Notes under the pieces: model-generated
Told to the model about the DNA's origin: nothing
The model's input: only the letters and a program-made list of their open reading frames with translations
The model's database searches: none
Made by a program: the position numbers and the translations under genes
Shown: in pieces, positions 2,900 to 58,261 of the stretch
How positions within the stretch are numbered: position 1 is the stretch's first letter
How the letters are laid out: each line of letters begins with the position of its first letter
Assembly (NCBI RefSeq): GCF_000409775.1
Contig: NZ_KE332377.1
Span: forward strand, 1,212,073-1,276,072
DNA: 64,000 nt
Direction: 5' to 3'
Origin: Litchfieldella anticariensis FP35 = DSM 16096
GTDB lineage: Bacteria; Pseudomonadota; Gammaproteobacteria; Pseudomonadales; Halomonadaceae

Positions 2900-5526
2900 T
2901 TACGCTTGTCCTCTACCTGCCACTTGCCATCCTCGAAAACAGCCCGCCAGCCGGTTGCCTTGCCGTCCTCTTCGGTCATCACGTATTGCGACTTGGACTT
3001 GCGCGAGAAACGAATCTGCGCTGGACGACCATCTGGATCTTCGCTGGGGGCATCGAGAATGAAATGATACTTCTCGGGCAACTCGTTGGCATGTGCCTTG
3101 AGCTCGTGGACCAAGGGTGGTCGCGTCTCTCGGTTCTTGGGGAATTGGCTCGCCGCCAGAAACAAACCGCTGGCGCCATCGCGCAGCACATAGTGATCGT
3201 CGACCTTCTGACAGGCCAGTTCCGGCATAGGTATCGGCTCCATCTTGGGAGGCGCTACCTCACCGCTCTTCAGCAGCTTGCGTGTGTTCTTGCATGCCTC
3301 GTTGGTACAACCGAAGTACTTGCCGAAACGGCCTGACTTCAATTGCATCTCCGCCCCACACTTGTCGCACTCTAGTGTCGGCCCCTCGTAGCCCTTGATC
3401 TTGAATCGTCCTTTCTCAATCTCATGACCATCGCAATCAGGGCTATTACCGCAAATATGCAGCTTGCGCGTCTCATCGATCAGGTAGCTGTCCATAGCGG
3501 TACCGCACTTGGGACAGCGATGCTTGGCACGCAACGCCACGGCCTCGGCTTCCTCGTCGGCATCAGCAGCCACCGCTTCCTCTCCAGGAATCAGATCGAT
3601 GGTGGTCTTGCAGCGTTCCTTGGGGGGCAGGTTGTAGCCCGAACAACCGAGAAAAACCCCAGTGGAGGCGGTGCGAATCTGCATCTTGCGCCCACAACTC
3701 GGACAGTCGATATCGGTTGCCACAGGCTGATTCGGGCGCATGCCATCTTCACTCTCGGCATGTTCCAGGCGCGTCTTGAATTCGGCATAGAAGCTGTCGA
3801 GTAGCACCTTCCAGTCACGCTCCCCCTCAGCGATCTCATCGAGACTGTCTTCCATGCGCGCAGTGAATCCGTAGTCCATCAAGTCACTGAAGGATTCCTT
3901 TAGGCGCTCGGTGACGATATCGCCTAGTTTTTCGGCATAGAACCGTCGGTTCTCCAACTTGACGTAGCCGCGATCCTGAATAGTGGAAATGATCGACGCA
4001 TAGGTCGAGGGTCGGCCGATACCACGTTTTTCCAACTCCTTGACCAAGCTCGCTTCAGTAAAACGAGCCGGCGGTTTAGTGAAGTGCTGTTTCGGATCCA
4101 GTGCCTCGAGCGACATCGGCGTTCCCTCGGAAAGGTCGGGCAACGACTGGTCCTCGTCCTTCTTGCCGGCGGGTTTCATTACCCGCGTGTAACCATCGAA
4201 CTTGAGCACTCGCCCCTTGGCTTTGAGCTCGTAGCCATTGGTTTCCACCGTCAACGTGGTCGAGAGATATTCCGCCGGGGTCATTTGGCAGGCCACGAAT
4301 TGGCGCCAGATCAACTCGTAGAGACGTTCGGCATCTCGCTCCATACCAGCCAGATCGGTCGCCTTACGCTCCACGTCCGAGGGGCGAATCGCTTCGTGGG
4401 CCTCCTGGGCACCCGCCTTGCTGGTATAGCGGTTGGGGGCCTCTGGCAGGTACCGCTTGCCGTATTCACGCTCAATGTGGCCGCGTACCGCTGCCACCGC
4501 ATCCTGAGACAGATTGGTGGAGTCGGTACGCATGTAAGTGATGTAGCCCGCCTCGTAGAGCCGCTGGGCCAGGGTCATGGTCTTCTTCACCGAGAAGCCC
4601 AAACGACCGCTGGCGGCCTGCTGCAACGTCGAGGTAATGAAGGGCGCACCGGGCTTGGACCGAGTCGGTTTGTCTTCCCGACCAGTGATTTCGAGGCTAG
4701 CTTGTCTAAGCGCAGCAATACGCTCAAGGGTCTCGGCCTCAGAGGTGGGCCGGAACACCTCCCTCCCCTGACGCGTCAGCTCGAAACGCACCGACTTGCC
4801 TTCAGGGCTCATCAAGTCCGCATGGACGTCCCAAAACTCCTCGGGCACGAAAGCACGGATTTCACGCTCGCGCTCAACGATTAGACGAACGGCCACCGAT
4901 TGCACACGCCCGGCGGATAGCCCTCGAGCCACCTTGTTCCATAGCAACGGCGACAGCATGAACCCCACCACCCGATCGAGGAAGCGCCGCGCCTGTTGAG
5001 CCTCGACACGCTCGATATTGAGCGTCCCAGGATCCTTGAAAGCTTCCTGGATGGCGTTCTTGGTAATTTCGTTGAACACTACCCGCTTGTAACGTTCGTC
5101 TTCACCGCCAATGGTTTCCTTGAGATGCCAGGCAATCGCCTCCCCTTCACGGTCCAAGTCCGTTGCCAGGTAGACGGCATCCGCTTTGGCAGCATACTTC
5201 TTGAGCTCAGCGACGACCTTTTCCTTGCCCGGAAGTATCTCATACTGGGCACGCCAGCCATGCTCGGGGTCTATTCCCATTCGCCGGATCAGCTGGCCCC
5301 AAGCTTTCTGCTGCCGATAGCTGGCCTTCTCCTCCGCAGACATCTTGCGTGTCGCTGCCGCCTGCCGGGCGCGCTCCTTGGGATCGGAGGCTGCCTTGCC
5401 CGAGCCGCTGGTCGGCAGGTCACGAATATGACCCACGCTGGATTTCACGATGAAATCATTGCCGAGATACTTGTTGATCGTCTTGGCCTTGGCCGGAGAC
5501 TCGACGATGACCAGTGACTTGCCCAT
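2896..5526 (-). CDS. topA: DNA topoisomerase I
   Basis: A full-length type IA topoisomerase of 876 residues that relaxes negatively supercoiled DNA. The N-terminal TOPRIM domain has [14 protein letters not shown] and the acidic [15 protein letters not shown] motif. The active-site region is [16 protein letters not shown], whose central Tyr forms the covalent DNA link. The C-terminus carries three Cys4 zinc-ribbon modules (starting CPSCGRK, CPKCGTA and CDKCGAE) followed by a basic tail, as in the E. coli enzyme (865 residues). The start codon has GGAG just upstream. It overlaps the next gene by ATGA. Confidence 0.97.
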
Positions 5527-5913
5527 AGTGCTCCATTTTCCTCATGGCACCGGCCACACGACCCGTGCCTGGCTGCTCGACTCCCGGCATTTCACCGAGT
5601 GAAAAATGCGCCTACCCTACCCCAGCCTCCGGCTTGACGCCAGTCATCTCACTCCACTCGCTTTTTGACCCTAGACTGCCAGCCTATTCTCTCGCAAGCT
5701 TTGACACGCTCCTGCATCGCCGTCTCGTTCTCCATTCAATCCGCTCATGGCATCTTCGTTATCACCTTGTCATGAAGGCTTTTTTCTCAAGCGAGAGCGT
5801 GGTGTACTATGATGTAGTAAAATCACTACATCACATGAAACCCTCTATACGATTGGGTTTGTCACATTACCTCCTTATACATAACGCCACAGAAACCATT
5901 ACAGGAGTTCTCC
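5527..5913. other. Intergenic region between divergent topA and pyk
   Basis: 387 bases without a convincing gene. It must hold the divergent promoters of topA and pyk. The right half (about 5760-5900) is AT-richer than its surroundings and contains a long perfect inverted repeat described separately. No pair of -35 and -10 boxes with good spacing could be fixed by eye. Confidence 0.6.
5810..5833. promoter_or_regulatory. Palindromic operator candidate upstream of pyk
   Basis: Perfect 9-bp inverted repeat TGATGTAGT-N6-ACTACATCA, 81 bases before the pyk ATG. HexR, the phosphosugar-sensing regulator known to control pyk in several gammaproteobacteria, binds TGTART/AYTACA half sites. The half sites here (TGTAGT / ACTACA) fit, but the spacer is six bases instead of the usual three or so. 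Identity of the regulator is therefore inference. Confidence 0.5.
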
Positions 5914-7371
5914 ATGCCGTACCCACTTCACGACCCCATCCGCCGTACCAAGATCGTCGCCACCCTGGGCCCGGCCAGCGACCGCGAGGGAGTGCTCGAG
6001 GCCATGATCGAAGCCGGGGTCGACGTGGTGCGCTTGAACTTTTCCCACGGCTCGCCCGACGATCATCGCCGCCGCCTGGCCCGGGTCCGCGAGATCGCCG
6101 ACCGCCTGGGTAAGAGCGTCGCCGCGCTCGGCGACCTGCAGGGCCCCAAGATCCGCATCGCCCGCTTCCGCGACGGCGCCGTGCGCCTCGAGGAGGGCCA
6201 GGCCTTCGTCCTCGACATGGCGCTCGACGGTGAGGCCGGCGATGCGGCACGCGTGGGTTGCGACTACAAGCAGTTGGTCGACGACGTCGTCGCCGGCGAC
6301 CGCCTGCTGCTCGACGATGGCCGCCTGGTGCTCGAGGTCGAGCGAGTCACCGGCCCCGAGGTCCATACCCACGTGGTGGTGGGCGGCAAGCTGTCCAACA
6401 ACAAGGGTATCAACAAGCAAGGTGGCGGGCTCTCCGCTGCGGCGCTCACCGACAAGGACAAGGCCGACCTCAAGACCGCCGTCGACATTGGCGTCGATTA
6501 CCTCGCCGTGTCCTTCCCGCGCTCGGCCGCCGACATGCAGGAAGCCCGCGCCCTGCTCGGTGAAGCCGGCGCCGAGATCGGCCTGGTGGCCAAGGTCGAA
6601 CGTGCCGAGGCAGTGGCCGACGACGCCACCCTGGACGGCATCATCGAGGCCAGCGATGCGGTGATGGTGGCACGCGGCGACCTCGGCGTGGAGATCGGTG
6701 ACGCGCAGTTGATCGGCGTGCAGAAGCGCCTGATCAAGCGCGCCCGCACCCTGAACCGCGCGGTGATCACCGCGACGCAAATGATGGAGTCGATGATCAC
6801 CGCCCCGCTGCCGACCCGCGCCGAGGTGTTCGATGTCGCCAATGCGGTGCTCGATGGCACCGATGCGGTGATGCTCTCCGCCGAGACCGCCGCCGGCGAT
6901 TACCCGGTGGAAACCATCGAGGCCATGCATCGCCTGTGCCTGGGGGCCGAGCGCGAGCGCATCGCCCAGGAGTCGGGACACCGCATCCATGAAGGCTTCT
7001 CGAAGATCGACGAGACGGTGGCACTGTCGGCGATGTACGCCGCCAACCACCTCGAGGGCGTGGCGGCGATCGCCTGCATGACCGCCACCGGCTACACGCC
7101 GCTGATCGCCTCGCGCATCCGTTCGGGGCTACCGATCGTCGGCCTGGCCCACAGCCCCATCGCCCAACGGCGCATGGCGTTGTACCGCGGCGTGGTGTCG
7201 CTGCCGTTCGATACCACTCATTTGACGGCCGACGAACTCGACCCCCGAGCCATGGCAATCCTCAAAGAGCGCGGTATTACCTCACCAGGCGACCTGATGA
7301 TCCTTACTCGAGGTGATCACATGAACGCCCACGGCGGCACCAATACGCTGAAGATTCTCGAGGTGCAATAG
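5914..7371 (+). CDS. pyk: Pyruvate kinase
   Basis: A 485-residue pyruvate kinase converting PEP and ADP to pyruvate and ATP. Diagnostic segments are [12 protein letters not shown] at the N-terminus, [19 protein letters not shown], the active-site [12 protein letters not shown] and [10 protein letters not shown]; the C-terminal regulatory domain ends [22 protein letters not shown] lies six bases before the ATG. Base composition is striking: hand-counted 60-base lines inside the gene reach about 67-73% GC, with nearly all third positions G or C, while the last 150 bases fall back to the level of neighbouring genes. mgsA follows after four bases. Confidence 0.97.
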
Positions 7372-7375
7372 AACC

Positions 7376-7852
7376 ATGACCGAGCAACGCCCTGGCCAGC
7401 AAACGGCTCGTACACTTCCGACACGCAAGCGCATCGCCCTGATCGCTCACGACGGCAAGAAGGATGAACTGCTGGACTGGGCCCGACGCTGGCGCGAGAC
7501 TCTGACTCGCCATCAACTCGTTGGCACTGGAACGACCGCCAGACGCGTCTCCAGTGATTTGGGGTTGGATGTAGAGGGCCTGATGAGCGGCCCACTAGGA
7601 GGAGACCAGCAGATCGGTGCGCGAATTACCGAGCAACGCCTCGACCTGTTGATCTTCTTTTGGGACCCCTTCGCCCCCCAGCCTCATGATCCCGACGTCA
7701 AGGCACTGCTGCGGTTGGCAGCGCTGTGGAACATTCCGGTGGCCTGCAATGCCGCCAGCGCCGATTTCCTGATCAGCTCGCCCTATCTCAGCGAAGAAGT
7801 CAGCATCGGGATTCCCGATGCCGGCGATTGGTTGGCCGCGCGGACCACTTAG
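7376..7852 (+). CDS. mgsA: Methylglyoxal synthase
   Basis: 158 residues, close to the E. coli enzyme. It converts dihydroxyacetone phosphate to methylglyoxal plus phosphate, a bypass that relieves sugar-phosphate build-up when phosphate is short. The opening RKRIALIAHDGKKDELLDWA, the phosphate-binding SGPLGGDQQIGARI, and the WDPFAPQPHDPDVKALLRLA and PVACNAASADFLI blocks are all characteristic. It starts four bases after pyk, so the two should be co-transcribed, placing the methylglyoxal shunt next to the last glycolytic step. Confidence 0.96.
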   Translation: MTEQRPGQQTARTLPTRKRIALIAHDGKKDELLDWARRWRETLTRHQLVGTGTTARRVSSDLGLDVEGLMSGPLGGDQQIGARITEQRLDLLIFFWDPFAPQPHDPDVKALLRLAALWNIPVACNAASADFLISSPYLSEEVSIGIPDAGDWLAARTT

Positions 7853-7874
7853 CCGAAACCAGCTTTACCTCTGG

Positions 7875-7963
7875 TGGGAGCGCAGATATTCTGCGCGATC
7901 CGGCCGCCAGGCCGGCTGCATGGACTCGTTCCAGCCCCATCGGCGCAATGAATTGCGCTCCCA
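7875..7963. repeat. REP-like doublet with three hairpins between convergent genes
   Basis: The ends form a perfect 10-bp inverted repeat (TGGGAGCGCA ... TGCGCTCCCA). Inside are three smaller hairpins: GCGCAG/CTGCGC, CCGGCC/GGCCGG and GCGCAA/TTGCGC. The TGGGAGCGCA ends resemble the repetitive extragenic palindromes of pseudomonads and halomonads. It lies between the 3' ends of mgsA and the DUF3141 gene and could end or stabilise both transcripts. Confidence 0.75.
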
Positions 7964-7972
7964 TGAGCGCTC

Positions 7973-10198
7973 CTAACTAGGCCTGCGCGCCTCGGTTCGG
8001 GCGCTAGCCGGCGGGCGGGCCTGGTCGAAGGCAGCCTTGATTACCGATAGACGCTCACGGGAGTGCTCGCTCAGCGGCCCACTAGCATCCAGCACATGCT
8101 CGATATGCGCCAGATGCTCGTCGATCTGAGCGTTGCTCTGCCCTTCGAGCAAGGTCGGCAACGCATCCAATGCTGCCTGGCGGTCCAGCTTGAGGATGAA
8201 GAACTGGTCACGCACCAATGCCTTGAATGCCGCCAGATCAATGGAAGGCTCCACTTCAGCACGCGTTGCCTTCAAGCGCTGGAAATTGCGTTCATCGGTA
8301 GCCGGCGCCCCACCCAATACATAAATCAGGGAGCGCATCACCGCTTCGTGATAGCTCCCCTTGTCGATTCGAGAACACAATTCCGTCTTGCGATTCTCGA
8401 CGAAGCGCCGGTGATCAGGCTCGATACCCGGCCGCCGTCTCAGCGGCTCGTTACCGGCCCCCAATCCAACCATGGTCTGCAACCAAGGCTGGCCGTATAT
8501 GCCAAGAAATAAGCGCTCGGAGGCCTGATCACGAAGTTCCCGATAGGCATCCAACGATTGTGCGATCTGGTGTGAAACGATGCCTTCCAGCACCCGCCAT
8601 GGGTTGTCGGCATTCGTGGCGTGCCGGTCAGCCTTGACCCACTCGGCCATCACAGGGACCGGTACCATCAATGGATTACGATCGGAAAACAGCTTATAGC
8701 CCAACCGAATCGGATGCATGCGGCGGATCCAGCGCGCCGCCGACGGTGTCATCAAAGCTTGCAGCCAAGGCTGGACAAGCATCTGATAGACCCCCAGGTT
8801 GATATCGGACACACGCGCCACCGTAGCAAAACGCCGATCATCCTCTTCGCTAGGCCTTACGATCTCATCCAGATCCCCCAACTCGCGTGGTACAAATTCC
8901 AGCAGATAGTCACCATCGATATGCACTGCATCCTCATCGCGAGCTGCGGTTTCGATCACCGTCGTCTCGTACAACCCTGGGGGCAATACATCGATGTAAT
9001 CCATGTTGGCGGTGAACTCGGCATGCTCCTTGCGGGAGACGCTCCCTGACACGAAAATCCCCAGATGACCGGTGGAATCGTGCACACAGTAGACGATGGT
9101 CTGCTCATTGGCCTGAATATCATCGACATCAGCATACAGATCGCGGACCCATCCCAGTGCTTGCGGCGGCGGTGTAATATCGTCCCCTTGCGAACAGAAC
9201 ACCACGATCGGCGAGCGGATGTTGCGTAAATCGATGCGCCGCCCATCGCGCGTCGAAAGCTGCGAGGTACTCAGGCGGTTACCGATGAACAGATTGTCCA
9301 CGATATACTGAATTTCTTCGGCCCCAAGTACCACGTGGCCGCCCCACCAGCGCTCGAACTGCAGGTAGCGTTGCGCCTCACTATCAATGTTAGCGAACAG
9401 CCGATACTGCTTGGTCCATAGCGTATTGGCGGGGTTGAGCTTTTCGAAGTTCTGCACCAGCCAAGCACCGTCGAAGAGCCCGGCTCCCAGATCGCCGGCC
9501 AAAGCCGTCATCCAACTGCCACCCAACAGGCCGCCGGTATAGCGCATAGGGGCCCCGCCACGCTCGCCGGCCCAGTAGGAAAGCGGCGCTCCGGCGATCA
9601 AGATGGGACCGAAGCAGTCGGGCTCCAATGCGGCAGCCATCATGATCTGCCAGCCAGCCTGGCAGTTGCCAACCACCATGGGCCTTTCGGCGGTATCGGG
9701 ATGACGGGCAATCACCTCACGCAGAAAAGCGATCTCAGCATCAACCACGTCTTCCACCGTTTGACCGGGAACGGGAAACGGCAGGAAACCGATGAAGTAG
9801 CACGGATGGCCGGCTCGCAACGCCACGCCGAGTTCGCTGTCAGGTTTGAAACCGCCGATACCGGGGCCATGACCGGCACGAGGGTCGACGACCACGAAGG
9901 GGCGCCCGTCTGGGTCGATCTCGACCCCCGCAGGTGGCAGGATGCGCATCAATTCGTAATTGACCGGGCGGGGCAAGTCCCGCCCATCCATCAGAACCTC
10001 AGCATCGAAGCCCAAAACATTGGGTTTGGTCTGCTCCATGTGCTCGAGGTACTGGTTGCCGCGCTCGCGCATGACATCAAGATACAATACGCTACGCTCG
10101 ATTGTGTCGAGCCAGTAGTGAAACGCATCGCGCCCGATTCCCAACGGGTCGAAGAGCGCTGAGGACAAAGTCGCAAGGTTGGCAGGGGCCGGCAACAT
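7973..10198 (-). CDS. DUF3141 / PhaC-like alpha-beta hydrolase
   Basis: About 741 residues from the ATG at 10196-10198, which has an AGGGAG ribosome binding site. The fold is that of poly(3-hydroxyalkanoate) synthases: the nucleophile elbow GNCQAGW carries a Cys, as in PhaC, and the later FCSQGDDITPPP and HDSTGHLGIF segments supply the probable Asp and His. The family is annotated as DUF3141. The long C-terminal half (after about residue 450) is not part of ordinary PhaC. It may act in polyester metabolism, but polymerase activity is not shown. A TGC-rich palindrome sits just upstream of the start. Confidence 0.85.
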   Translation of the reverse strand: MLPAPANLATLSSALFDPLGIGRDAFHYWLDTIERSVLYLDVMRERGNQYLEHMEQTKPNVLGFDAEVLMDGRDLPRPVNYELMRILPPAGVEIDPDGRPFVVVDPRAGHGPGIGGFKPDSELGVALRAGHPCYFIGFLPFPVPGQTVEDVVDAEIAFLREVIARHPDTAERPMVVGNCQAGWQIMMAAALEPDCFGPILIAGAPLSYWAGERGGAPMRYTGGLLGGSWMTALAGDLGAGLFDGAWLVQNFEKLNPANTLWTKQYRLFANIDSEAQRYLQFERWWGGHVVLGAEEIQYIVDNLFIGNRLSTSQLSTRDGRRIDLRNIRSPIVVFCSQGDDITPPPQALGWVRDLYADVDDIQANEQTIVYCVHDSTGHLGIFVSGSVSRKEHAEFTANMDYIDVLPPGLYETTVIETAARDEDAVHIDGDYLLEFVPRELGDLDEIVRPSEEDDRRFATVARVSDINLGVYQMLVQPWLQALMTPSAARWIRRMHPIRLGYKLFSDRNPLMVPVPVMAEWVKADRHATNADNPWRVLEGIVSHQIAQSLDAYRELRDQASERLFLGIYGQPWLQTMVGLGAGNEPLRRRPGIEPDHRRFVENRKTELCSRIDKGSYHEAVMRSLIYVLGGAPATDERNFQRLKATRAEVEPSIDLAAFKALVRDQFFILKLDRQAALDALPTLLEGQSNAQIDEHLAHIEHVLDASGPLSEHSRERLSVIKAAFDQARPPASARTEARRPS

Positions 10199-46361: not shown

Positions 46362-48254
46362 CTATGCTTCGTCGACGATGGTCTTCTCGGTATCGGCGGC
46401 ATTGCCGACATCTTCGCCCAAGAAACCGCCAGATTGGCGTTTCCATAATGCGGCATACAGCCCATCGCGGCGCAGCAATTCTTCATGAGTGCCGGTTTCG
46501 ATGATGCGCCCCCGGTCCATGACCACCAGCCGGTCGAGCATGGCGATGGTCGACAGCCGGTGGGCAATGGCTAGTACTGACTTGCCTTTCATCAGCGCAT
46601 AAAGCTGCTCCTGGATCGCCGCCTCGACCTCGGAATCCAGTGCCGAGGTTGCCTCGTCGAGAACCAGGATCGGGGCATTCTTGAGCAGTACCCGGGCAAT
46701 GGCGATACGCTGGCGCTGCCCACCGGAAAGCTTGACCCCTCGCTCACCAACGTGAGCGTCCAACCCTCGACGCCCTTGTGGGTCGCTCAAAGTGTCGAGG
46801 AATACATCGGCATGCGCACGTCGTGCCGCTTCCATTACCTGCTCGTCAGTGGCATGCGGGCTGCCATAGCGGATGTTGTCACGGATCGAGCGGTGCAACA
46901 GCGACGTGTCCTGAGTCACCATGCCGATCTGCCGACGCAACGATTCCTGGGTGACCTCGACGATATCCTGTCCATCGATCAAGATATGCCCCGTTTCCAA
47001 GTCGTAGAAGCGCAGCAGTAGATTGGCAAGGGTCGATTTTCCTGCCCCGGAGCGACCGATGATACCGACCTTTTCACCTGGCTGGATGGTCAGCGAGAGA
47101 TCCTCGATGACCCGCGGATGACACTCATCGTCACGCACCTTGCCATAATGAAAGTGAAGCTGCTCGAAGCGGATCTCTCCCCGAGGAACCATCAGCTCTT
47201 TGGCATTGGGCTGGTCAGTAATCGCCGGAGTCTGGGCAATGGTATTGATGCCATCCTGTACCGTGCCAATGTTCTCGAACAGGCCAGCCACTTCCCACAA
47301 AATCCAGTCCGACATGAAACGGATACGCATCACCAGCGCGATCGCCACTGCAATCACACCCAGGGAGATGAACGAGAAATACCAAGCCATGATCGCGATG
47401 CCAGCTACCGAAGCCAGCAACAACGAGTTGAGCACCGTCAACGTCACCGTCATCAACGTCACTAGACGCATCTGACGGTGCACCGTCTGCATGAAAGTGT
47501 CCATGGCATCGCGTGCATAGGCCTGCTCGCGTAGGGAATCAGCGAACAGCTTGATGGTCTGGATATTGGTATAGCTATCGACGATACGCCCGGTCATTTG
47601 TGCCCGAGCATCAGCCTGAGCCATCGAGACACGCCGCAAGCGTGGCACGAAGATCACCATGATCCCAATATATCCCGCCAACCACACGACCAATGGCAAC
47701 ATTAGCCAAGGATCGGCGCTTCCGACCAGAAACATCGCGCCAGTGAAGTAGACGACGACATAGACAAATAGGTTGGTCAGCTTCATCACAGTCTCGCGGA
47801 TGGCCAGTGCCGTTTGCATGACCTTCTGCGATACACGCCCCGCAAATTCGTCCTGAAAGAACGCCATGCTCTGACGAAGGATATGGCGATGCGCCAACCA
47901 ACGCCCGATCATCGGATAGTTACCAAAGATGCTCTGGTGGGTCAGCAATGACTGCAGCAGTATCAGCAGCGGAAAGCCAACGACTATCATCAGCGCCATG
48001 CTGGCCAGACTCGCCCCATGCTCGGCGAAGAAGTTCTCACGCTCGGCATTGGATAGCCAATCGACGAGGTCTCCCATATAGCTGAAGAACACGACCTCGG
48101 CAACCGAGACCAGGGCAGTCAATAGTGACATCACCCCCAACAGCGGCAATACCGGCCTCGAGTAGTAATGAAGGAAGGCCAACAACCCACGAGGAGGTGT
48201 CTTGGGTTCACCCGACGGATAGGGATGAACCAGTGTCTCGAAGAAACGGAACAT
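46362..48254 (-). CDS. ABC exporter, fused permease and ATPase
   Basis: About 630 residues from the ATG at 48252-48254, with AAGGGAG further upstream; the frame extends nine codons earlier without a binding site. A six-helix ABC transmembrane domain (residues about 35-330) precedes the nucleotide-binding domain with Walker A GRSGAGKST, signature LSGGQRQRIAIAR and Walker B ILVLDEATSALDSEVE. It is an MsbA/multidrug type half-transporter that would form a homodimer; substrate unknown. It is 4 kb from the lasso-peptide cluster with housekeeping genes between, so a link to peptide export is only a possibility. Confidence 0.87.
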   Translation of the reverse strand: MFRFFETLVHPYPSGEPKTPPRGLLAFLHYYSRPVLPLLGVMSLLTALVSVAEVVFFSYMGDLVDWLSNAERENFFAEHGASLASMALMIVVGFPLLILLQSLLTHQSIFGNYPMIGRWLAHRHILRQSMAFFQDEFAGRVSQKVMQTALAIRETVMKLTNLFVYVVVYFTGAMFLVGSADPWLMLPLVVWLAGYIGIMVIFVPRLRRVSMAQADARAQMTGRIVDSYTNIQTIKLFADSLREQAYARDAMDTFMQTVHRQMRLVTLMTVTLTVLNSLLLASVAGIAIMAWYFSFISLGVIAVAIALVMRIRFMSDWILWEVAGLFENIGTVQDGINTIAQTPAITDQPNAKELMVPRGEIRFEQLHFHYGKVRDDECHPRVIEDLSLTIQPGEKVGIIGRSGAGKSTLANLLLRFYDLETGHILIDGQDIVEVTQESLRRQIGMVTQDTSLLHRSIRDNIRYGSPHATDEQVMEAARRAHADVFLDTLSDPQGRRGLDAHVGERGVKLSGGQRQRIAIARVLLKNAPILVLDEATSALDSEVEAAIQEQLYALMKGKSVLAIAHRLSTIAMLDRLVVMDRGRIIETGTHEELLRRDGLYAALWKRQSGGFLGEDVGNAADTEKTIVDEA

Positions 48255-48365
48255 GGCGAACTCGACTCCCTTCATATGCAAGTACGACGACGCTATCCAC
48301 CCTAATACCTCAACTTAAATTGAGGTCAAGGGTTTTTCTCTGCACATTTTCCTCTGTATAAAAGC

Positions 48366-51487: not shown

Positions 51488-52057
51488 ATGATGAAACGAT
51501 ACTTGAGTACATTGCTGATGGTCGGCCTAACGCTGCCCCAGGCTGCCATGAGCGACACGTTGCGCCTGCCTGAAGATGCCTCCTTCGCGGTCCACGTGAT
51601 CGACGAGGCACACCTGACGCGAGACACCCCCACCCTTTCCGATCTGATCCTGCAACCCGTGGCAAGCCAGCAGGCCGATTATCATCTTCCCGAACATTGT
51701 CTGATCACGGCCGATGCACAGCTTGAGGGCGAGCGCGTCAGGATCTCGGCCAAGACCCTGACCTGTATCGACACCCATGGTGCCGATAGCGAAATATTCA
51801 GCGGCAAGCTCTCGGCATCGGCCATGGAGAGTGACGGCAGCTACGCCGTTGATGCCTGTATAGAAAAGCTCGGCAGCGAGTGCGAGCGTGCCGAGTTACA
51901 GCCATCGCATATCTTCCAACTGCGCTTGGGGCGAGCCTTGGCGTTGGATCCTCAAGACAACCCTGCCGCCCGAATCAACGAACAACGCCGCCAAGCCGAG
52001 GGAGAAGGAATCGCCAACCCGATTCCCAATGAGCGCCCGGATCCCGACGAAGACTGA
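51488..52057 (+). CDS. Exported hypothetical protein with four cysteines
   Basis: 189 residues from the ATG at 51488, preceded by GAGG. A signal peptide (MMKRYLSTLLMVGLTLPQAAMS) leads to a mature region with four Cys, in HCLITAD, LTCIDTHG, DACIEKLG and SECERA, which could form two disulfides. The C-terminus is acidic and Pro-rich (NPIPNERPDPDED). No family is recognised. It is the last gene before the lasso-peptide cluster on the same strand, separated by a hairpin, so a role in the cluster is uncertain. Confidence 0.6.
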   Translation: MMKRYLSTLLMVGLTLPQAAMSDTLRLPEDASFAVHVIDEAHLTRDTPTLSDLILQPVASQQADYHLPEHCLITADAQLEGERVRISAKTLTCIDTHGADSEIFSGKLSASAMESDGSYAVDACIEKLGSECERAELQPSHIFQLRLGRALALDPQDNPAARINEQRRQAEGEGIANPIPNERPDPDED

Positions 52058-52152
52058 CCGCCGCGTGTTTCCATGACGTCGTGATGCTTCGTTGTCCACC
52101 ACTGCGAATGCCGCGATCTTGGACACAGCCCGCCTGCGTCTTTGAGACAAGC

Positions 52153-52189
52153 CCCAACACGCGCTCCATGACCTCAAGTACGTGTTGGG
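52153..52189 (+). terminator. Long-loop hairpin before the lasso cluster
   Basis: CCCAACACG / CGTGTTGGG, 9-bp stem with a 19-base loop, about 95 bases after the preceding stop codon. No T run. Possible terminator or processing site. Confidence 0.35.
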
Positions 52190-52213
52190 CAAGGAGAGAT
52201 GCAAACTTGCGAC

Positions 52214-52219
52214 TATAAT
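52214..52219 (+). promoter_or_regulatory. -10 box candidate for the lasso-peptide operon
   Basis: A perfect TATAAT 29 bases before the next gene's ATG. No -35 with normal spacing is visible, so an activator may be needed. Near-duplicate 18-base segments beginning GCATGCG occur at 52224 and 52247. Confidence 0.4.
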
Positions 52220-52248
52220 AACGGCATGCGAACACTCAGAATAACAGC

Positions 52249-52719
52249 ATGCGCACACTCCGAAAATTCCACCAGCTCCCCCACGCCCGGAAAATCATGC
52301 TCATGGAAGCTGCTTATCTGCTGCCGTGGGCATGGGTTCTGGTAAGAGTTCTGCCGTTTCGGTTCTGGTCACGCGGGCTGGGCAAGCCGACACCGGGAGA
52401 AGCCGCCCCCTCCGCTGCCTCCACCGATAAACGGACGCGAGACATCTGCTGGGCTGCCATGGCCGTCAATAACGCTTCCGGCGGTCGATTCACCTGCCTG
52501 ATGCTGGCCATGACCGCCCAATGGATGCTGAACCGACGCCGCATCTCCAACAGCCTGGTTCTGGGTACGCAGACCGAGCAAGGCGCTGACAACCGGCTTG
52601 CCATGAAGGCCCATGCTTGGCTGCGGGACGGCACGCGAATCGTACTGGGACAGCATGGCGGCCAGTACACTGCGGTTTCCAGTTTTGTCAGAACGTACCA
52701 CCATCATGTCGATGGATGA
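52249..52719 (+). CDS. Lasso peptide B2 protein (transglutaminase-like leader peptidase)
   Basis: 156 residues. The C-terminal half matches the lasso B2 / McjB-type cysteine protease: DICWAAMAVNNASGGRFTCLMLAMTAQWML with the probable nucleophile Cys83, a RGI-like RRRISNSLVLGTQ strand, and KAHAWLRDG with the probable catalytic His122. A hydrophobic helix (AAYLLPWAWVLVRVLPFRFW) lies near the N-terminus. It would cut the leader after the Thr-X pair of the precursors. The cyclase gene follows after six bases. The ribosome binding site is weak, so an internal Met start is possible. Confidence 0.88.
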   Translation: MRTLRKFHQLPHARKIMLMEAAYLLPWAWVLVRVLPFRFWSRGLGKPTPGEAAPSAASTDKRTRDICWAAMAVNNASGGRFTCLMLAMTAQWMLNRRRISNSLVLGTQTEQGADNRLAMKAHAWLRDGTRIVLGQHGGQYTAVSSFVRTYHHHVDG

Positions 52720-52725
52720 TGCACG

Positions 52726-54663
52726 ATGAGCGCCATTCTCGGTCGTATCCACTTTTCCGGTGACCCGGTCGACCCACATGGGTTTCAGGCGGCGATGACG
52801 GCTCTGAGCACCTATGGACGAGAAGGCTCCGACGTCTGGATCGATGGCCCCGTCGCGCTAGGCTATCAGCACCTTGTGATCAGCCCCGAGTCGGCCCATG
52901 AAGCCCAACCCTTGGCGCTTGATGGACTGGCCATCGTCGCCGATGCCATCATCGATAACCGCGAACAACTGCTCGACCAGTTGCTTCTCAACAGCAACGG
53001 CCGTGCAGCTATCCCCGATAGCCAGATTATACTGCACGCCTACCGGCGCTGGGGCCGAGAGTGCGTCTCCCGCCTGGAGGGCGATTTTGCCTTCGCCATT
53101 TGGGATACACGCCACCAGGCCCTGTTTTGTGCCAGGGACCATATCGGTTCTCGGCCGCTATTTTTTTACCATGGCGACGACCGGTTCCTGTTCTCGACCG
53201 ATATCCGGGGCTTGCTGGCCTTCAGTGATATCAGCTTTACCATTGATGAATATCGGGTGGCCTCGTTTCTGATCTGGCCCCTTGATGCCAACGAGAACAG
53301 CTTCTTCCAGCACATCCGGCATGTACGGCCAGGGCACTATCTCCATGCGTGCCGTGGACGACTGGAACAGCAGCCCCACTGGCACCCGCAGGAGGTGGCG
53401 AGCATTCGCTATCGACACCGAGAAGAGTACAGCGAGCATTTCAGGGAACTGCTGGAAGCTGCAGTGGCCGACCGCCTGAGGACCCGCTTCCCCGTAGGCT
53501 CCCATATCAGTGGAGGGCTCGACTCCACCGGGGTGACGATTCTCGCCAACCGCCTTCTTCGCGCCGAGAGTCGCGAGCTGGACATGAGTTATACCTGGGC
53601 GCCACCGGTGTCGGAGCGCTACCCCCTATCCAACAGCCCACGCGACGAGCGCCGAATCATCGCGGATATCTGCCAGCGGGAAGATATCGCATGCCATTAT
53701 GGAACCGCGACAGGCCGAGATTTCCATGATTTTCTGGCTCGAGATATCGCTGTGGAGGGCTCCACGGATCTGTTCGAGGAGCTGCCGGTCATGGCGCATG
53801 CCGGCCAGCGAGGCATCCGGGTGATCCTTTCCGGCTGGGGCGGCGATGAATCCGCCACTTTCAGCACAAGGGGTTACCCCGCGTATCTGCTCAAGCGAGG
53901 GCAATGGTTGACACTGTTCGACGTGACACGGATCAGCGCCGGCGGCCTGCGCCACGTCATGCGTATGGCCAGATTCTTGTGGCAGTCGGCCCTGCTGCCG
54001 TTGATGCCCGATGCAGTTTATGACCGTTTCACCCCCTTCCTGAGAACCGATCGACTCGAGCAGTTCATCCGTCCGGATTTCATTGATCGCTTTCCACAGG
54101 TCTGGAGCCAGCGAGGACTGGCATGGCGAGAGTATGCCGATCCCATGAAAATACAGGCGATACTGCTGCAGAATGGGCACCTGGCCAGCCGCATGACGAC
54201 ATGGGCCAACTGGTCAGCACCACAAGGTCTCATCTACCGCTATCCACTAACGGACATTCGTCTACTGCGCTTCACTATGGGCCTTCCTCCTGACCTGCTT
54301 TGGCATAACGGCGTAGCGCGTTACCTCTATCGGAACGCGCTCAGGGACATACTGCCTCGCAATCTTGGCAAGCAGGATATCAGCAACGAACAAAAGCGCA
54401 TGGACATGCGGCTGGAGTGCTGGCGGCTGCTGGCGGACGAGGCAAAAAATGGGCAGTTCCGGCAGTACTGCGACTGGTTGGACACTCCGTCCTTACACGC
54501 CCGTATCATGGATGTCCCGGAGCACGTTTCTTCTCATAACCTATTGAAATTTATCCCACTTCCCTCGACCTTGCAGACATGGCACCTGTGGCGGCGATAC
54601 GGTACGTTCGATCGAAGAACATATCGCCAAACAGCCTCGAGGGCCTTACCAGAAAACACTTGA
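52726..54663 (+). CDS. Lasso peptide macrolactam-forming cyclase (McjC type)
   Basis: 645 residues related to asparagine synthetase B. The N-terminal glutaminase-like domain lacks the nucleophile Cys2 (it begins MSAILGRIHF), as in lasso cyclases. The ATP-pyrophosphatase domain has HISGGLDSTGVTILANRLL (SGG-DS at 262-267) and LSGWGGDESATFSTRG. It would activate the ring Glu side chain with ATP and join it to the freed N-terminus. The long C-terminal region (after about 420) is typical of proteobacterial cyclases. The promoter of the first precursor gene overlaps its stop codon. Confidence 0.93.
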   Translation: MSAILGRIHFSGDPVDPHGFQAAMTALSTYGREGSDVWIDGPVALGYQHLVISPESAHEAQPLALDGLAIVADAIIDNREQLLDQLLLNSNGRAAIPDSQIILHAYRRWGRECVSRLEGDFAFAIWDTRHQALFCARDHIGSRPLFFYHGDDRFLFSTDIRGLLAFSDISFTIDEYRVASFLIWPLDANENSFFQHIRHVRPGHYLHACRGRLEQQPHWHPQEVASIRYRHREEYSEHFRELLEAAVADRLRTRFPVGSHISGGLDSTGVTILANRLLRAESRELDMSYTWAPPVSERYPLSNSPRDERRIIADICQREDIACHYGTATGRDFHDFLARDIAVEGSTDLFEELPVMAHAGQRGIRVILSGWGGDESATFSTRGYPAYLLKRGQWLTLFDVTRISAGGLRHVMRMARFLWQSALLPLMPDAVYDRFTPFLRTDRLEQFIRPDFIDRFPQVWSQRGLAWREYADPMKIQAILLQNGHLASRMTTWANWSAPQGLIYRYPLTDIRLLRFTMGLPPDLLWHNGVARYLYRNALRDILPRNLGKQDISNEQKRMDMRLECWRLLADEAKNGQFRQYCDWLDTPSLHARIMDVPEHVSSHNLLKFIPLPSTLQTWHLWRRYGTFDRRTYRQTASRALPENT

Positions 54664-54720
54664 CATTAATAGCCAAGCGGCCAATTCTTAACAAAGCATT
54701 ACATTTCGGAAATGTAAAAG
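54660..54720 (+). promoter_or_regulatory. Promoter and inverted-repeat module before lasso precursor 1
   Basis: TTGACA (54660-54665), 17 bases, then AATTCT as a weak -10 (54683-54688), followed by TTAACAAA and the inverted repeat TTACATTT-CGG-AAATGTAA (54699-54717). The same elements with the same spacing precede precursor 2. The -35 overlaps the cyclase stop codon. Confidence 0.65.
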
Positions 54721-54757
54721 GTGACCGATCCCAATTCGGTTTGGAGAGGGAAAGTCC

Positions 54758-54934
54758 ATGAAGAACGGCAAAGATTCATCTAGCCAGAATAGCCAGAACA
54801 AAAGTGCCTGGGTCACACCCGAGCTGTTCGTGATGAGCGTCGAGCAGACACTTTCAGGACGGCGGAACAACCCATCAGAAAGTATGTCATCGAGTAATGC
54901 TTCATCCCATGTTCCAGGCACCCTAAACTCATAA
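54758..54934 (+). CDS. Lasso peptide precursor 1
   Basis: 58 residues, preceded by GGAGAGGG. The leader contains SAWVTPEL (a W-x-x-P form of the lasso leader motif) and ends EQTL, with Thr at -2 as required by B2 proteases. The predicted core is 26 residues and starts SGRRNNPSE, so Ser1 to Glu9 would make a nine-residue ring; the tail ends VPGTLNS. A start at Gly2 would give an eight-residue ring. The core is Ser/Asn-rich with no Cys. The paralogous second precursor supports the call, with 13 of 26 core positions identical. Confidence 0.85.
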   Translation: MKNGKDSSSQNSQNKSAWVTPELFVMSVEQTLSGRRNNPSESMSSSNASSHVPGTLNS

Positions 54935-55014
54935 ACAATAGCGAGACAAACACAAAATCGTGCCATTCTGTTCGATAAACTTGGTTTATTCGAATAAAAA
55001 CATAGTGTCTTTAC

Positions 55015-55056
55015 ATCCCTTTCATTCCGACAAAGTTTCTTCGGAAGGGATTTTTT
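55015..55056 (+). terminator. Terminator after lasso precursor 1
   Basis: TTCCGA / TCGGAA stem with a ten-base loop, extended by ATCCC / GGGAT across a bulge, followed by six T residues. It would separate precursor 1 from the RRE gene, letting precursor be made in excess. Confidence 0.7.
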
Positions 55057-55112
55057 ATTCTTGTAAAAGTATAAAAACCTTCCCGCTGAGCATTTTAAAA
55101 TAGGGATTTTTT

Positions 55113-55385
55113 ATGGATTTATCGAACAAAGTAAGCCGCGAGAAAGGCCCACTGGCCTCACAAGTAAACGACGACCTGGTCATTTTCAGTGCTCGAAATG
55201 GCATGTACTACGGTACCCAAATCGTGGGAAATCGCATCTGGTCGCTTATTGAGCACGAAACTACCATTTCCGCCATCTGCGAAAAGTTACTGAGAGAATT
55301 CGAGATCGATCGTGACACTTGCACACAAGAAGTCGTTGCGTTTCTGGAGCAACTCAATCATGAAGGGCTGATCAAGGTCCGGTAA
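55113..55385 (+). CDS. PqqD-like RRE protein (lasso B1)
   Basis: 90 residues. The winged-helix RiPP recognition element fold is seen in DDLVIFSARNGMYYGTQIVGNRIWSLIEHETTISAICEKLLREFEIDRDTCTQEVVAFLEQLNHEGLIKV, typical of PqqD-family B1 proteins. It binds the leader and delivers it to the B2 protease. The start follows an AT-rich stretch with AGGG upstream. It lies between the two precursor genes, an unusual position. Confidence 0.88.
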   Translation: MDLSNKVSREKGPLASQVNDDLVIFSARNGMYYGTQIVGNRIWSLIEHETTISAICEKLLREFEIDRDTCTQEVVAFLEQLNHEGLIKVR

Positions 55386-55408
55386 ATAATTGCTAGCCCA
55401 TAAATTTC

Positions 55409-55467
55409 TTGACAGTGACGGCACGGCGATCAATTCTTAACAAACCTTTACATTTAATTGCATGTAA
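55409..55467 (+). promoter_or_regulatory. Promoter and inverted-repeat module before lasso precursor 2
   Basis: TTGACA (55409-55414), 17 bases, AATTCT (55432-55437), then TTAACAAA and the inverted repeat TTACAT-N8-ATGTAA (55448-55467). It mirrors the module at 54660. The conserved spacing suggests common control of both precursors. Confidence 0.65.
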
Positions 55468-55513
55468 GGGAAGTCATTGGTCCCGCAACCGAGTCCACGT
55501 GGGAGGTCCCATA

Positions 55514-55678
55514 ATGGACAACACACAATCATCCTGCAAACAAAAGAGTGCCTGGGTCACACCCAAGCTCTCCCACATGAGTATTGAGCAGACCCTTTCA
55601 GGACTACTACCTAACCCATCTGAAACCATGGCAAATTTCCACTCTTCCGAGAACGTCCCAGGTGGTCTCGAGTCATGA
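55514..55678 (+). CDS. Lasso peptide precursor 2
   Basis: 54 residues from the ATG at 55514, with GGGAGG upstream. Leader with KSAWVTPKL and EQTL before the cut. Predicted core 26 residues starting SGLLPNPSE (Ser1 to Glu9 ring) and ending VPGGLES. Core length, ring size and the NPSE and VPG motifs are shared with precursor 1, while tail residues 12-19 differ most. A longer in-frame extension back to 55409 runs through the promoter module and was not used. Confidence 0.87.
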   Translation: MDNTQSSCKQKSAWVTPKLSHMSIEQTLSGLLPNPSETMANFHSSENVPGGLES

Positions 55679-55719
55679 GATTAGTGTGACAGCCTTAGGA
55701 CGATTATGATTGGAGAAGT

Positions 55720-55754
55720 CCCTTTTCGCTTATCAAGCGAAAAGGGCTTTTTTT
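55720..55754 (+). terminator. Strong terminator ending the lasso cluster
   Basis: 12-bp stem CCCTTTTCGCTT / AAGCGAAAAGGG with a three-base loop, then C and seven T residues. Ends the plus-strand cluster before the convergent nucleotidyltransferase gene. Confidence 0.92.
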
Positions 55755-55779
55755 CAGAGTCCCTTTATTTGCGACATCG

Positions 55780-56964
55780 TTACTGCGGCTCGCGGGAATT
55801 GAGTCGTTTGATCAGCCCGCGGAACGGTCGGCTCAGCAGGTACAGCCACTGATAGCAGGGTCGCAGAGGCCAGCTTTCGTAGTCGGAATAGCTCGGCTGC
55901 AAGGGGCTCACCCAGCCCCTTATCCTCCACCATAACCGATGGGGAAGGCTAGTCTGCCAGGCAAAAGCAAAATCAGGCGTAGGATTCCCATTGCGCAGAA
56001 ACACTTCCACCTCGCGCGCCCCTTGCAGGTTGATCAGGCAAGCCTCGACCAAGGCCTTGCCGTGATCGCTGATTGTCTCGTTGCGCCACGGTTCAAGCAT
56101 GGCGCAGGCCTGATAAAGCTCCAACGAGGCTTCGAGGGTGGCAGTCAGATTGCGCCGCCTGGCACAGGCACGGACCTCTGCCAGATCGAAATCCGGGGAT
56201 CGCTGCATCGCATCGAGATCGGCCAACCAATGCAAATGGGACCAGCGGTGTCGGGTATGATGCAGGCAGGCGTAGACGAAAAGCTCAGCTGAGGGCATGA
56301 CCGACATCTCGATGTCATCCACCCACAGGGCTTCGGCGTTGGCCACAAGCTCGGCAGAGTCATAGATCGTACCGGCCTTGTCGATCTGCTTGTGGATCTC
56401 GATCTGAATTCCTTGAGGAGACAGCAAGGTGATGACCGTTCGCACCCGCGCGGCGAAGGTCAAGCTAGCCCGATCCGGGGCCAGGTTCCGGGGCCAGTAC
56501 GGCGTGTAACCTTGTGTCAGCGCCGCTTCGAGCAGTTCCACTATTCGCTCATGAGGTACCAGCAGATCGATATCCCGACAGAAGCGCATGGCTGGCTCAT
56601 CATAGTAGCGAGCTGCCAGCGCACGCCCTTTGAAGAACAGGTGAGGAATTTCCAGGGGATCCAGTAACTCCTGCACCAGTTGTCGCTGCGCGTCGGCGAG
56701 GCAAAGGTTGTATTGGACGATGGCCAAGCATTGGCAACGCATACCTTCGAGCTGTTCCGGCGGGAGGTTCTTCGGTGCGAGTTGGCACAAATGCCGATAG
56801 ATCAACGGCAATACAAAGCGCTGCTCGGCCTGTTGTGCAACTTGAAACCAGTCGTCGATTCGGGAGCACAAAGCCAGGACAGCTCGTTCCTGCGCTGCCG
56901 ACAATTCCAGTCGCGTCAATAGCAGCACAAGCTGTAGCGACGGCTCCAACGCGGAAGAGCTCAT
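55780..56964 (-). CDS. Nucleotidyltransferase family protein facing the lasso cluster
   Basis: About 394 residues from the ATG at 56962-56964 (an in-frame TTG at 57051 would add 29). The fold is the NTP_transf_5 / uncharacterised nucleotidyltransferase family: ILHLFFKGRALA-like PHLFFKGRALAARYYDEPAMRFCRDIDLLV holds the lysine and the D-x-D metal pair (RDIDLL). Members often lie in lasso-peptide and polysaccharide clusters, and may modify the peptide, but no activity is proved. It is convergent to the cluster and has its own promoter. Confidence 0.8.
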   Translation of the reverse strand: MSSSALEPSLQLVLLLTRLELSAAQERAVLALCSRIDDWFQVAQQAEQRFVLPLIYRHLCQLAPKNLPPEQLEGMRCQCLAIVQYNLCLADAQRQLVQELLDPLEIPHLFFKGRALAARYYDEPAMRFCRDIDLLVPHERIVELLEAALTQGYTPYWPRNLAPDRASLTFAARVRTVITLLSPQGIQIEIHKQIDKAGTIYDSAELVANAEALWVDDIEMSVMPSAELFVYACLHHTRHRWSHLHWLADLDAMQRSPDFDLAEVRACARRRNLTATLEASLELYQACAMLEPWRNETISDHGKALVEACLINLQGAREVEVFLRNGNPTPDFAFAWQTSLPHRLWWRIRGWVSPLQPSYSDYESWPLRPCYQWLYLLSRPFRGLIKRLNSREPQ

Positions 56965-57051
56965 CGCCACTCTACCGCTCTTGACCGTGCGCGCTGCGCC
57001 GGGCTGACACTCCAATCGTGAATTCACGTCGGGGCCCGGAAGGATTGACAA

Positions 57052-57274
57052 CCCTCACCATTTATCGTCTGCACTTCCCCACCTGCGCCTTTCAAAAGTA
57101 AACCCAATGTTTATTTTGGTAATAAAGTGTTAACACGTTTTGTAAGGCTAAGATAAAACCCCGGCTCGCCCAAGTTGAATTTCTTGATGGAAGCCTTGCA
57201 GGAAGGGTAAGGACAATGAGTGAGTTGGGGCTCGAGTCATGCCATATCAAATAATGAGTGATGCCATACTCACA
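57052..57274. other. AT-rich spacer between the nucleotidyltransferase gene and srkA
   Basis: 223 bases, AT-rich in 57095-57165, with a perfect 10-bp palindrome GTGTTAACAC at 57127-57136. It would contain the nucleotidyltransferase promoter. A 12-codon frame (starting 57217) with GGTAAGGACA upstream is too short to support. Confidence 0.4.
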
Positions 57275-58261
57275 CTATGCCAGCCAGCGTGCATCCTCGT
57301 CCAACGCTTGGCGCTGTTGCTCCAATGTCCGGATATGACCATCCCAATAGCCTTCCTCAGCCACCCAAGGGAAGGCACGGGGAAAGGCGGGATCGTCCCA
57401 ACGAGCTGCTAGCCAGGCGCTATGGCGAATCAAGCGCAGGCTGCGCAGTGGCTCGATCCATTCCAGTTCTCGACGATCGAACTCGGTGTGTTGCTCATAG
57501 CCTTCGACGATCTCGGCCAGTTGCATATGCGCTTCCTGGTCACTCTGGGCGGTCAATAGCATCCACAGATCCTGCACGGCCGGCGCCATCACGCAGTCAT
57601 CGAAGTCCACCAGGCTGAAGTGTTCCTCACGTCCCAACATGTTGCCCAAGTGGCAATCACCGTGTACTCGGATAGCACGGCTAGCCGGCCAGGCTCGAGC
57701 TTTGAGTGCCCTGTGCAACTCCCCACTGATACGCTCATAAGCGCGGCGCTGACGGCGATTCAGCCAAGGGCCGGATAGCACCTGTTCACGGCTCTCGTCT
57801 ACCATGCCATCCAGATCCAGGGTGCGACGATGAACGAAGGGACGGCGTTTGCCAACTGCATGCAGTTGGCCAATGACATCCCCCAACGCGAAAAGATGGG
57901 CTGGATTCTCGAGCTCCGGCGCTTGGCCTGCGACCTGGGCAAACAGTGCGAAACGAAACCCTTCCGCATGATGCAAGCTCTCACCACTTTCATTGCGCCA
58001 TGGCGCGCCCACCGGCACTCCCGCCTCGTCAAGCTCGGCCAGAAAGTCGTGCTCTTCCAAGATTTGAGCATCGCTCCACCGCCCGGGGCGGTAGAACTTG
58101 ACCACCCAACGGCGACGCTCGTCGTCATGAACCAGGTAGACTCGGTTCTCATAGCTGTTGAGCGCAAAAGGCTCGCCAGGCAACCACATTCCCAGCGACT
58201 CAACGGCATCGACGATGCGCTTGGGATCCAGGCGCTCGAATGGATGAGCGTTTGCGGTCAT
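57275..58261 (-). CDS. srkA: Stress response kinase A
   Basis: 328 residues. Aminoglycoside-phosphotransferase-like fold of YihE/SrkA. FALNSYENRVYLVHDDERRRWVVKFYRPGRW is the nucleotide-binding part; RVHGDCHLGNML and LVDFDDCVMAPAVQDLWMLL are the catalytic loop and metal site. A Ser/Thr kinase that counters MazEF-type stress in E. coli. Confidence 0.93.
   Translation of the reverse strand: MTANAHPFERLDPKRIVDAVESLGMWLPGEPFALNSYENRVYLVHDDERRRWVVKFYRPGRWSDAQILEEHDFLAELDEAGVPVGAPWRNESGESLHHAEGFRFALFAQVAGQAPELENPAHLFALGDVIGQLHAVGKRRPFVHRRTLDLDGMVDESREQVLSGPWLNRRQRRAYERISGELHRALKARAWPASRAIRVHGDCHLGNMLGREEHFSLVDFDDCVMAPAVQDLWMLLTAQSDQEAHMQLAEIVEGYEQHTEFDRRELEWIEPLRSLRLIRHSAWLAARWDDPAFPRAFPWVAEEGYWDGHIRTLEQQRQALDEDARWLA

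Follow-up and report, generated by a model that had tools for sequence, protein, structure and literature searches.

The subject of this analysis is a 64,000-nucleotide stretch of the genome of Litchfieldella anticariensis FP35 (DSM 16096; assembly GCF_000409775.1, contig NZ_KE332377.1, positions 1,212,073 to 1,276,072), hereafter called the window, and more precisely the genes between its positions 52249 and 55678, which form an intact lasso-peptide gene cluster with two predicted products. Five genes with open frames follow each other on the forward strand, namely those for a leader peptidase (B2), a lasso cyclase (C), a first precursor (A1), a recognition element (RRE) of the kind found with ribosomally synthesized and post-translationally modified peptides (RiPPs) (B1), and a second precursor (A2), all of them where a first-pass annotation of the window had placed them. 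Two further elements had been overlooked: a nucleotidyltransferase gene (N), convergent to these five, and a second lasso locus elsewhere in the same genome (Table 1).

Table 1. Features of the lasso-peptide cluster, its surroundings, and the second locus; positions are those of the window unless the contig (C1) is given.
Feature	Position	Strand	Details
B2, leader peptidase, transglutaminase-like	52249-52719	+	156 aa; PF13471, NF033537
C, lasso cyclase, asparagine-synthetase-like	52726-54663	+	645 aa; PF00733, PF13537
Upstream element of A1, possible promoter	54660-54706	+	TTGACA-N17-AATTCTTAACAAAGCATTACATTT
A1, lasso precursor	54758-54934	+	58 aa: 32-aa leader, 26-aa core SGRRNNPSESMSSSNASSHVPGTLNS
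B1, RiPP recognition element, PqqD-like	55113-55385	+	90 aa; PF05402, NF033536
Upstream element of A2	55409-55455	+	TTGACA-N17-AATTCTTAACAAACCTTTACATTT; counterpart of the A1 element
A2, lasso precursor	55514-55678	+	54 aa: 28-aa leader, 26-aa core SGLLPNPSETMANFHSSENVPGGLES
Intrinsic terminator after A2	55720-55755	+	12-bp stem, then T-run
N, nucleotidyltransferase	55780-56964	-	394 aa from ATG; PF14907, E 1e-39
Stretch absent from congener G132	52059-57295		5,237 bp; flanks 24 bp apart in G132
Second lasso locus (L133, L134)	C1:530.9-547.3 kb
Kinase of the second locus (KIN)	C1:530922-531875
Exporter of the second locus	C1:540604-542412
Second HPr-like gene of the second locus (KIN2)	C1:546212-547285

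The family searches agree with these names. B2 matches Transglut_core3 in Pfam (E 3e-15) and NF033537 in NCBIfam (65.9 bits against a cut-off of 33), with no match among the PDB sequences. The cyclase combines Asn_synthase with GATase_7 and, on inspection, has the SGGLDS motif and lacks Cys2, its nearest solved chains in a search of PDB sequences being the amidotransferase 7ylz and asparagine synthetases. B1 matches the PqqD family at E 2e-16, comes just under the cut-off of the lasso PqqD model (79.2 of 80 bits), and resembles the solved lasso RREs 9x90 (lasso PqqD, E 3e-12) and TbiB1 5v1u (E 6e-10). The columns that are invariant among the relatives, defined for B2 and C over 14 of them, are retained at 25/25 positions in B2, 138/141 in C, 16/17 in B1, and 70/73 in N, so that the gene set is without visible decay.

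Both precursors have a predicted core of 26 residues with Ser1, Glu9, and a C-terminal Ser, preceded by Thr at position -2; these features had already been read correctly in the first-pass annotation. The leaders contain WVTPEL (A1) and WVTPKL (A2), which fit the RRE motif [Y/W]xxPx[L/V/I/A/F/Y] published in PMC13381572 (the literature is cited here and below from excerpts). The gene and sequence features by which a lasso cluster is recognized are present, namely an RRE motif and Thr(-2) in the leader, Asp/Glu at core positions 7-9, B1 together with B2, and an asparagine-synthetase-like cyclase. The two precursors share 15/28 residues in the leader and 13/26 in the core; neither is matched by a Pfam or NCBIfam model, and A1 has homologous precursors in 15 other genomes. 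That A1 and A2 are chance open reading frames (ORFs) was rejected on the strict motif W..P.L-x5-9-T[LF]-[SGT]-x7-E...S, which two ORFs of the window match, whereas every one of 20 dinucleotide shuffles gave zero. A looser precursor pattern was uninformative: it matched six window ORFs, against an average of 4.3 and a maximum of 11 over 30 shuffles. For the cores minus water, the computed monoisotopic masses are 2641.1899 and 2652.2126 Da.

Regarding N, for which an alternative TTG start is possible at 57051, a homologue accompanies the lasso clusters of all 18 other genomes that carry a close cyclase. Its AlphaFold model (mean predicted local distance difference test score, pLDDT, of 92) matches pol-beta-type nucleotidyltransferases over residues ~85-286 with a best Z of 14.8, MenT1, TM1012, LnuA, and ANT(2'') being the best structural matches and FKRP coming lower. 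The modeled fold fits either nucleotidyl or phospho-sugar transfer, without telling which; a profile of N found no match among the PDB sequences.

Of 275 genomes searched in the bacterial family, 19, the source genome included, carry a close relative of the cyclase (E <= 1e-80), and the named records among the best matches are those of Halomonas korlensis, Aidingimonas lacisalsi, Aidingimonas halophila, Halomonas sp. NO4, Franzmannia pantelleriensis, and Billgrantia kenyensis. An order-level search for the cyclase returned 2/390 genomes at E <= 1e-120, both belonging to the same family, of which that set of genomes is a thin sample. Among the plasmid-borne matches listed (10 of 20 records), none was a close relative, the highest identity being 33%. 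We refer to 16 of the 19 genomes, again counting the source, as type I, and to the other three (G081, G268, and G115), whose cyclases are 43-45% identical, as intermediate. Outside this set, a type I-like cyclase (51%) was seen in the order B1-B2-C on a contig binned as Anaerolineae (L030), which could be mis-binned.

In the 16 type I genomes, 19 precursors were found, and each of these has W-x-x-P-x-L in the leader, Thr(-2), Glu9, and a C-terminal Ser, which supports the earlier reading of A1 and A2 as related precursors of lasso peptides with a ring of nine residues from Ser1 to Glu9. The pattern used to collect them required D/E at 7-9 and G/S/A/C/T at position 1; a tblastn search free of both requirements matched the identical 19 ORFs. 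Their cores are 20-29 residues long, a range that takes in the 26 residues of the A1 and A2 cores, which the first-pass annotation had called unusually long. Position 1 is Ser in 15/19, Gly in 3/19, and Thr in 1/19; because 15 of the 19 have it, Ser1 is the rule among the predicted precursors of this family, and the rarity earlier ascribed to it does not carry over to the relatives. In the intermediate genomes, the precursors begin with Ser, Thr, or Gln, and all end in Ser. Cores with Thr1 were seen at L104:8553-8723(-) (TGRIDNPSETMS...) and L120:8147-8311(-) (TGPVRFPEEAIG...); the observed lasso first residues named in the excerpt of PMC12670498 include Ser and not Thr.

The usual arrangement among the relatives is B2-C-A-B1 facing exporter-N-kinase on the opposite strand, with a variable place for A. 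In L105, L110, and L111, A lies upstream, with the exporter and N between A and B2; in L114, B2 and B1 are separate from C; and two genomes taken as Aidingimonas have two precursors each, in tandem before B1. Given these variable orders, the order seen in the window cluster is the family habit plus an additional copy of A behind B1. The order B2-C-A-B1-A of the first-pass annotation is indeed what is seen, but the A-B-C order it was held against is merely one of several published (PMC5067487 describes five lasso clades, some with split B and a kinase), and the relatives vary. As a side observation, L106 has a 42-residue copy of the exporter end (7960-8085) between B1 and the exporter and, in the same interval at ~4966-7914, transposase-like ORFs noticed by eye, which suggests an insertion at this place.

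Of the 18 other genomes with a close cyclase, 17 have a putative HPr-like kinase, N, and an ATP-binding cassette (ABC) exporter within the fetched stretch that holds the cluster. In the 18th (G092), the cluster reaches a contig end, and the kinase, N, and the exporter stand at the end of a different contig. In the window cluster, N is present, and the kinase and the exporter are absent. The Halomonas korlensis kinase finds one strong match in the source genome, KIN (55%, E 9e-120), and one weak match besides, inside KIN2. The closest exporter in the source genome is 77% identical to that of the relatives and the next is 37%, out of 94 ABC-type matches overall. Both KIN and this exporter belong to the second lasso locus, which shares a 1.47-Mb contig with the window cluster at a distance of 0.72-0.73 Mb. 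An ABC transporter of the window itself, at 46362-48281(-), was considered as the lasso exporter and rejected, being 29% identical to the relatives' exporter vs 77% for the copy of the second locus. KIN keeps the H-G-G-G-K-S-D-D pattern, which is reported for lasso kinases (PMC10368454). The kinase occurs in 37/275 genomes of the family (E <= 1e-40), including all 19 with the cyclase; in four genomes (L136, L139, L143, and L145), no lasso gene was matched within the 20 kb fetched to surround the kinase.

The second locus contains the kinase, a CobS-like AAA gene (TIGR01650, 427 of 559 bits), a CobT-like VWA gene (PF11775, E 5e-59), a cyclase (NF033535, 372 of 525 bits; ~30% to the window cyclase), four precursors, B1, B2, an N gene (58% to the window N), and the exporter, followed by an asparagine-synthetase-like gene, a 412-aa gene with a PqqD-like end, and KIN2. 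The leaders of all four precursors fit Y-x-x-P and carry Thr(-2); the cores, such as AQMQANSDDGVNADNAFPNPTESS, have Asp at positions 8 and 9 and end in Ser. Cyclases of this second type (type II) occur in 13/275 genomes of the family, and the source genome is the sole overlap with the type I and intermediate list. The source genome has two of the lasso systems and two N genes, but a single kinase and a single exporter from these clades. In the careful trees, N of the second locus falls on the type I side (100/97), and the side of its exporter (100/100) holds all 15 type I rows together with two type II and two intermediate rows.

From these findings, we consider it probable that the window cluster makes two Ser1-Glu9 lasso peptides that are modified at the C-terminal Ser, with the kinase and the exporter supplied in trans by the second locus. 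From what is known of the family, B1 would bind the W-V-T-P-x-L leader of A1 or A2, B2 would cut after Thr(-2)-Leu(-1), and C would activate the side chain of Glu9 and join it to the Ser1 amino group, so that nine residues form the ring and the other 17 make up the tail to be threaded. Chemistry of a kinase and a nucleotidyltransferase on a C-terminal Ser is published (PMC9266682, PMC8498205) and, by analogy with paeninodin and pseudomycoidin, the HPr-like kinase would phosphorylate the conserved C-terminal Ser, and the local N would add to the phosphate. Kinase and dedicated ABC exporter would most likely come in trans from the second locus. A broader proposal, put forward tentatively, is that each of the two lasso systems uses its own RRE, protease, cyclase, and N, and that the single kinase and exporter are shared between them in trans. 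The systems contrasted are type I (window), with two precursors and a Glu9 ring, and type II, with four precursors and a predicted Asp8 or Asp9 ring; since the precursor sets differ in leader and core and share the C-terminal Ser, shared enzymes would read the tail more than the leader.

Several results weigh against this account. The best NCBIfam match of C is the lasso cyclase model NF033535, at 345 bits and below the cut-off of 525, and the predicted cleavage site rests on Thr(-2). The kinase is placed only weakly among HPr kinase relatives by profile, its assignment resting on motif and neighborhood: HprK_rel_A of NCBIfam is matched at E 1.8e-8 by a relative's kinase and at 6.5e-9 by KIN, the score being 35 bits against a cut-off of 200; in Pfam, the relative's protein gives nothing at E 0.001, and Hpr_kinase_C is not significant (E 0.16 and 0.26); and no kinase of this kind was matched among the solved structures. 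A type I origin of KIN, as given by a quick tree, was rejected, and the careful tree, built without second copies, puts KIN on a branch between the type I and type II kinases, outside type I. Moreover, the second locus has KIN2 as another HPr-like gene, the kinship of N with the enzyme of pseudomycoidin is taken from a shared name, and both lasso products are predictions from genes.

A simpler alternative is a plain lasso cluster without any C-terminal modification, in which the Ser is a relic of an ancestor that lost the kinase and the exporter, and N is a leftover. The absence of both genes from the cluster and the weak profile identity of the relatives' kinase speak for it, but N keeps its invariant columns, the C-terminal Ser is kept in two cores that have diverged, and a kinase and an exporter of the same families are found elsewhere in the genome, so that we regard this explanation as unlikely.

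Modification of the window precursors by KIN2, or their export by another ABC transporter, appears quite improbable. KIN2 keeps H...GGKS...DD, its HprK_rel_A match (E 5e-10) is at least as good as that of KIN, and the many ABC-type matches of the exporter query leave room for another transporter. However, the KIN family is present in 19/19 cyclase-positive genomes, whereas KIN2 is found in four fetched stretches, always with the asparagine-synthetase-like and the PqqD-ended genes, and for export the identity of the second-locus copy to the relatives' exporter stands far above that of the next match. The three genes recur together behind the exporter in L118, L120, L146, and the second locus itself, and this set is perhaps a further RiPP system.

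The -10-like hexamer of the A1 upstream element is poor, and a promoter scan over 52050-55900 called no site. Because AATTCTTAACAAANCNTTACATTT, a part of the A1 and A2 upstream elements, has no other genomic site within 3 mismatches, A2 was probably copied together with its upstream region. The palindromes TTACATTTCGGAAATGTAA (A1) and TTACATTTAATTGCATGTAA (A2), which come behind the shared upstream element, were considered as a conserved operator and rejected, the exact pattern TTACA-N4-12-TGTAA being missing upstream of the 17 other type I precursors; they are retained solely as an indication that A was duplicated jointly with its upstream region. The folds of the A1 and A2 leader RNAs are no better than those of shuffled sequences (z -0.31 and -0.99, respectively). 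The terminator after A2 has a fold z of -5.76, equaled by 0/200 shuffles. By eye, no regulator gene was noticed in the 5.2-kb stretch that is absent from G132. This empty-site comparison, made with blastn pieces and one congener, fits either a gain in the source genome or a loss in G132. At the thresholds used, G132 gave no match to the kinase or to the cyclases of the window cluster and of type II. A silent or non-functional cluster, in a 5.2-kb stretch without working expression or export, would agree with the empty site in G132 and the want of a called promoter or noticed regulator, but it is scarcely credible in view of the open frames and kept invariant columns, the duplication of a precursor with an upstream element found nowhere else in the genome, and the strong terminator.

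The type II clusters offered some observations of their own. CobS-like and CobT-like genes, assigned by family searches made on the pair of the source genome, stand beside the type II cyclase in 12 stretches (L137, L138, L141, L144, L146-L152, and the second locus itself); the CobT-like gene of L138 is split in two, and a 13th stretch, L153, has several fragmented genes. A literature search for lasso peptides with cobaltochelatase CobS/CobT gave no lasso-peptide paper among the matches listed. In L147, L148, L149, L150, L151, and L152, the type II cores are predicted, with the cut site taken from Thr(-2), to start with Asn, Gln, or His; Asn as the first residue of a lasso peptide has its first experimental case in PMC12670498.

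Lasso peptides as a class are well known, and what appears unusual here is the split layout, in which kinase and exporter apparently come from a second lasso locus. The most unusual traits, namely the adjacent N, the kinase and exporter lacking beside it, and the second locus, had escaped the first-pass annotation. With this analysis, the predicted lasso peptides of halophilic gammaproteobacteria gain a coherent family in which position 1 is mostly Ser and in some Gly or Thr, and in which every precursor found ends in Ser. Its clusters encode a putative kinase and a nucleotidyltransferase; phosphoglycosylated lasso peptides are known from Bacillus (PMC8498205). If the supply in trans is true, genome mining conducted cluster by cluster would mis-predict the product, and the source genome would be a natural test of leader-guided vs tail-guided steps of lasso maturation. 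In the literature on lasso peptides of Halomonas and Halomonadaceae, no description of the window family was found among the papers listed, which is weak evidence of absence as few subscription journals were covered; one Halomonas paper, as excerpted, has a single lasso cluster and compares it with paeninodin (PMC11196684). Searches for shared kinases or transporters, or for unclustered lasso genes, gave nothing on this family among the matches listed.

Among known systems, the paeninodin type (PadeK, ThcoK, SyanK) is alike in its split B1/B2, its C, an HPr-like kinase gene in the genome, and the C-terminal Ser (PMC9266682, PMC5067487), and HprK kinases and nucleoside triphosphate (NTP) transferases are typical of paeninodin-like lasso clusters (PMC13381572). 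It differs in that the window cluster is without kinase and exporter and has the order B2-C-A-B1-A vs the published C-A-K-B1-B2-D; the ring predicted for the window peptides is Ser1-Glu9. Of the traits of the paeninodin and pseudomycoidin types, the C-terminal Ser is found in both window cores and in 19/19 type I precursors, and a kinase gene within the cluster is not. Pseudomycoidin, from Bacillus pseudomycoides, likewise has a C-terminal Ser and a kinase, together with a nucleotidyltransferase by which one or two hexoses are attached to the phosphate (PMC8498205). Unlike it, the window system has its putative kinase 0.73 Mb away, belongs to a gammaproteobacterial host, and has a product predicted from the genes.

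Caulonodins IV-VII of Caulobacter reportedly include Ser1 members, a 2014 title being said to mention 'unprecedented N-terminal residues', and their clusters are said to have a fused B and no kinase or exporter, which sets them apart from the window family. They are alike in having more than one precursor per cluster (PMC7549694). The proteobacterial A-B1-B2-C-K-D clade (PMC5067487) also joins split B, kinase, and exporter in a proteobacterium, whereas the relatives of the window cluster mostly show B2-C-A-B1 facing exporter-N-kinase, with A variable. The closest published parallel found is the Bacillota genome of PMC13381572, in which, according to the excerpt, two RiPP systems, LPP and a paeninodin-like one, are kept apart via their RREs. 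There too, two related systems with similar leader motifs share one cell, with an HprK-like kinase, an NTP transferase, and an MsbA-like exporter, but the second system is without a cyclase, whereas both loci of Litchfieldella anticariensis have one, and here a single kinase and exporter appear to serve both.

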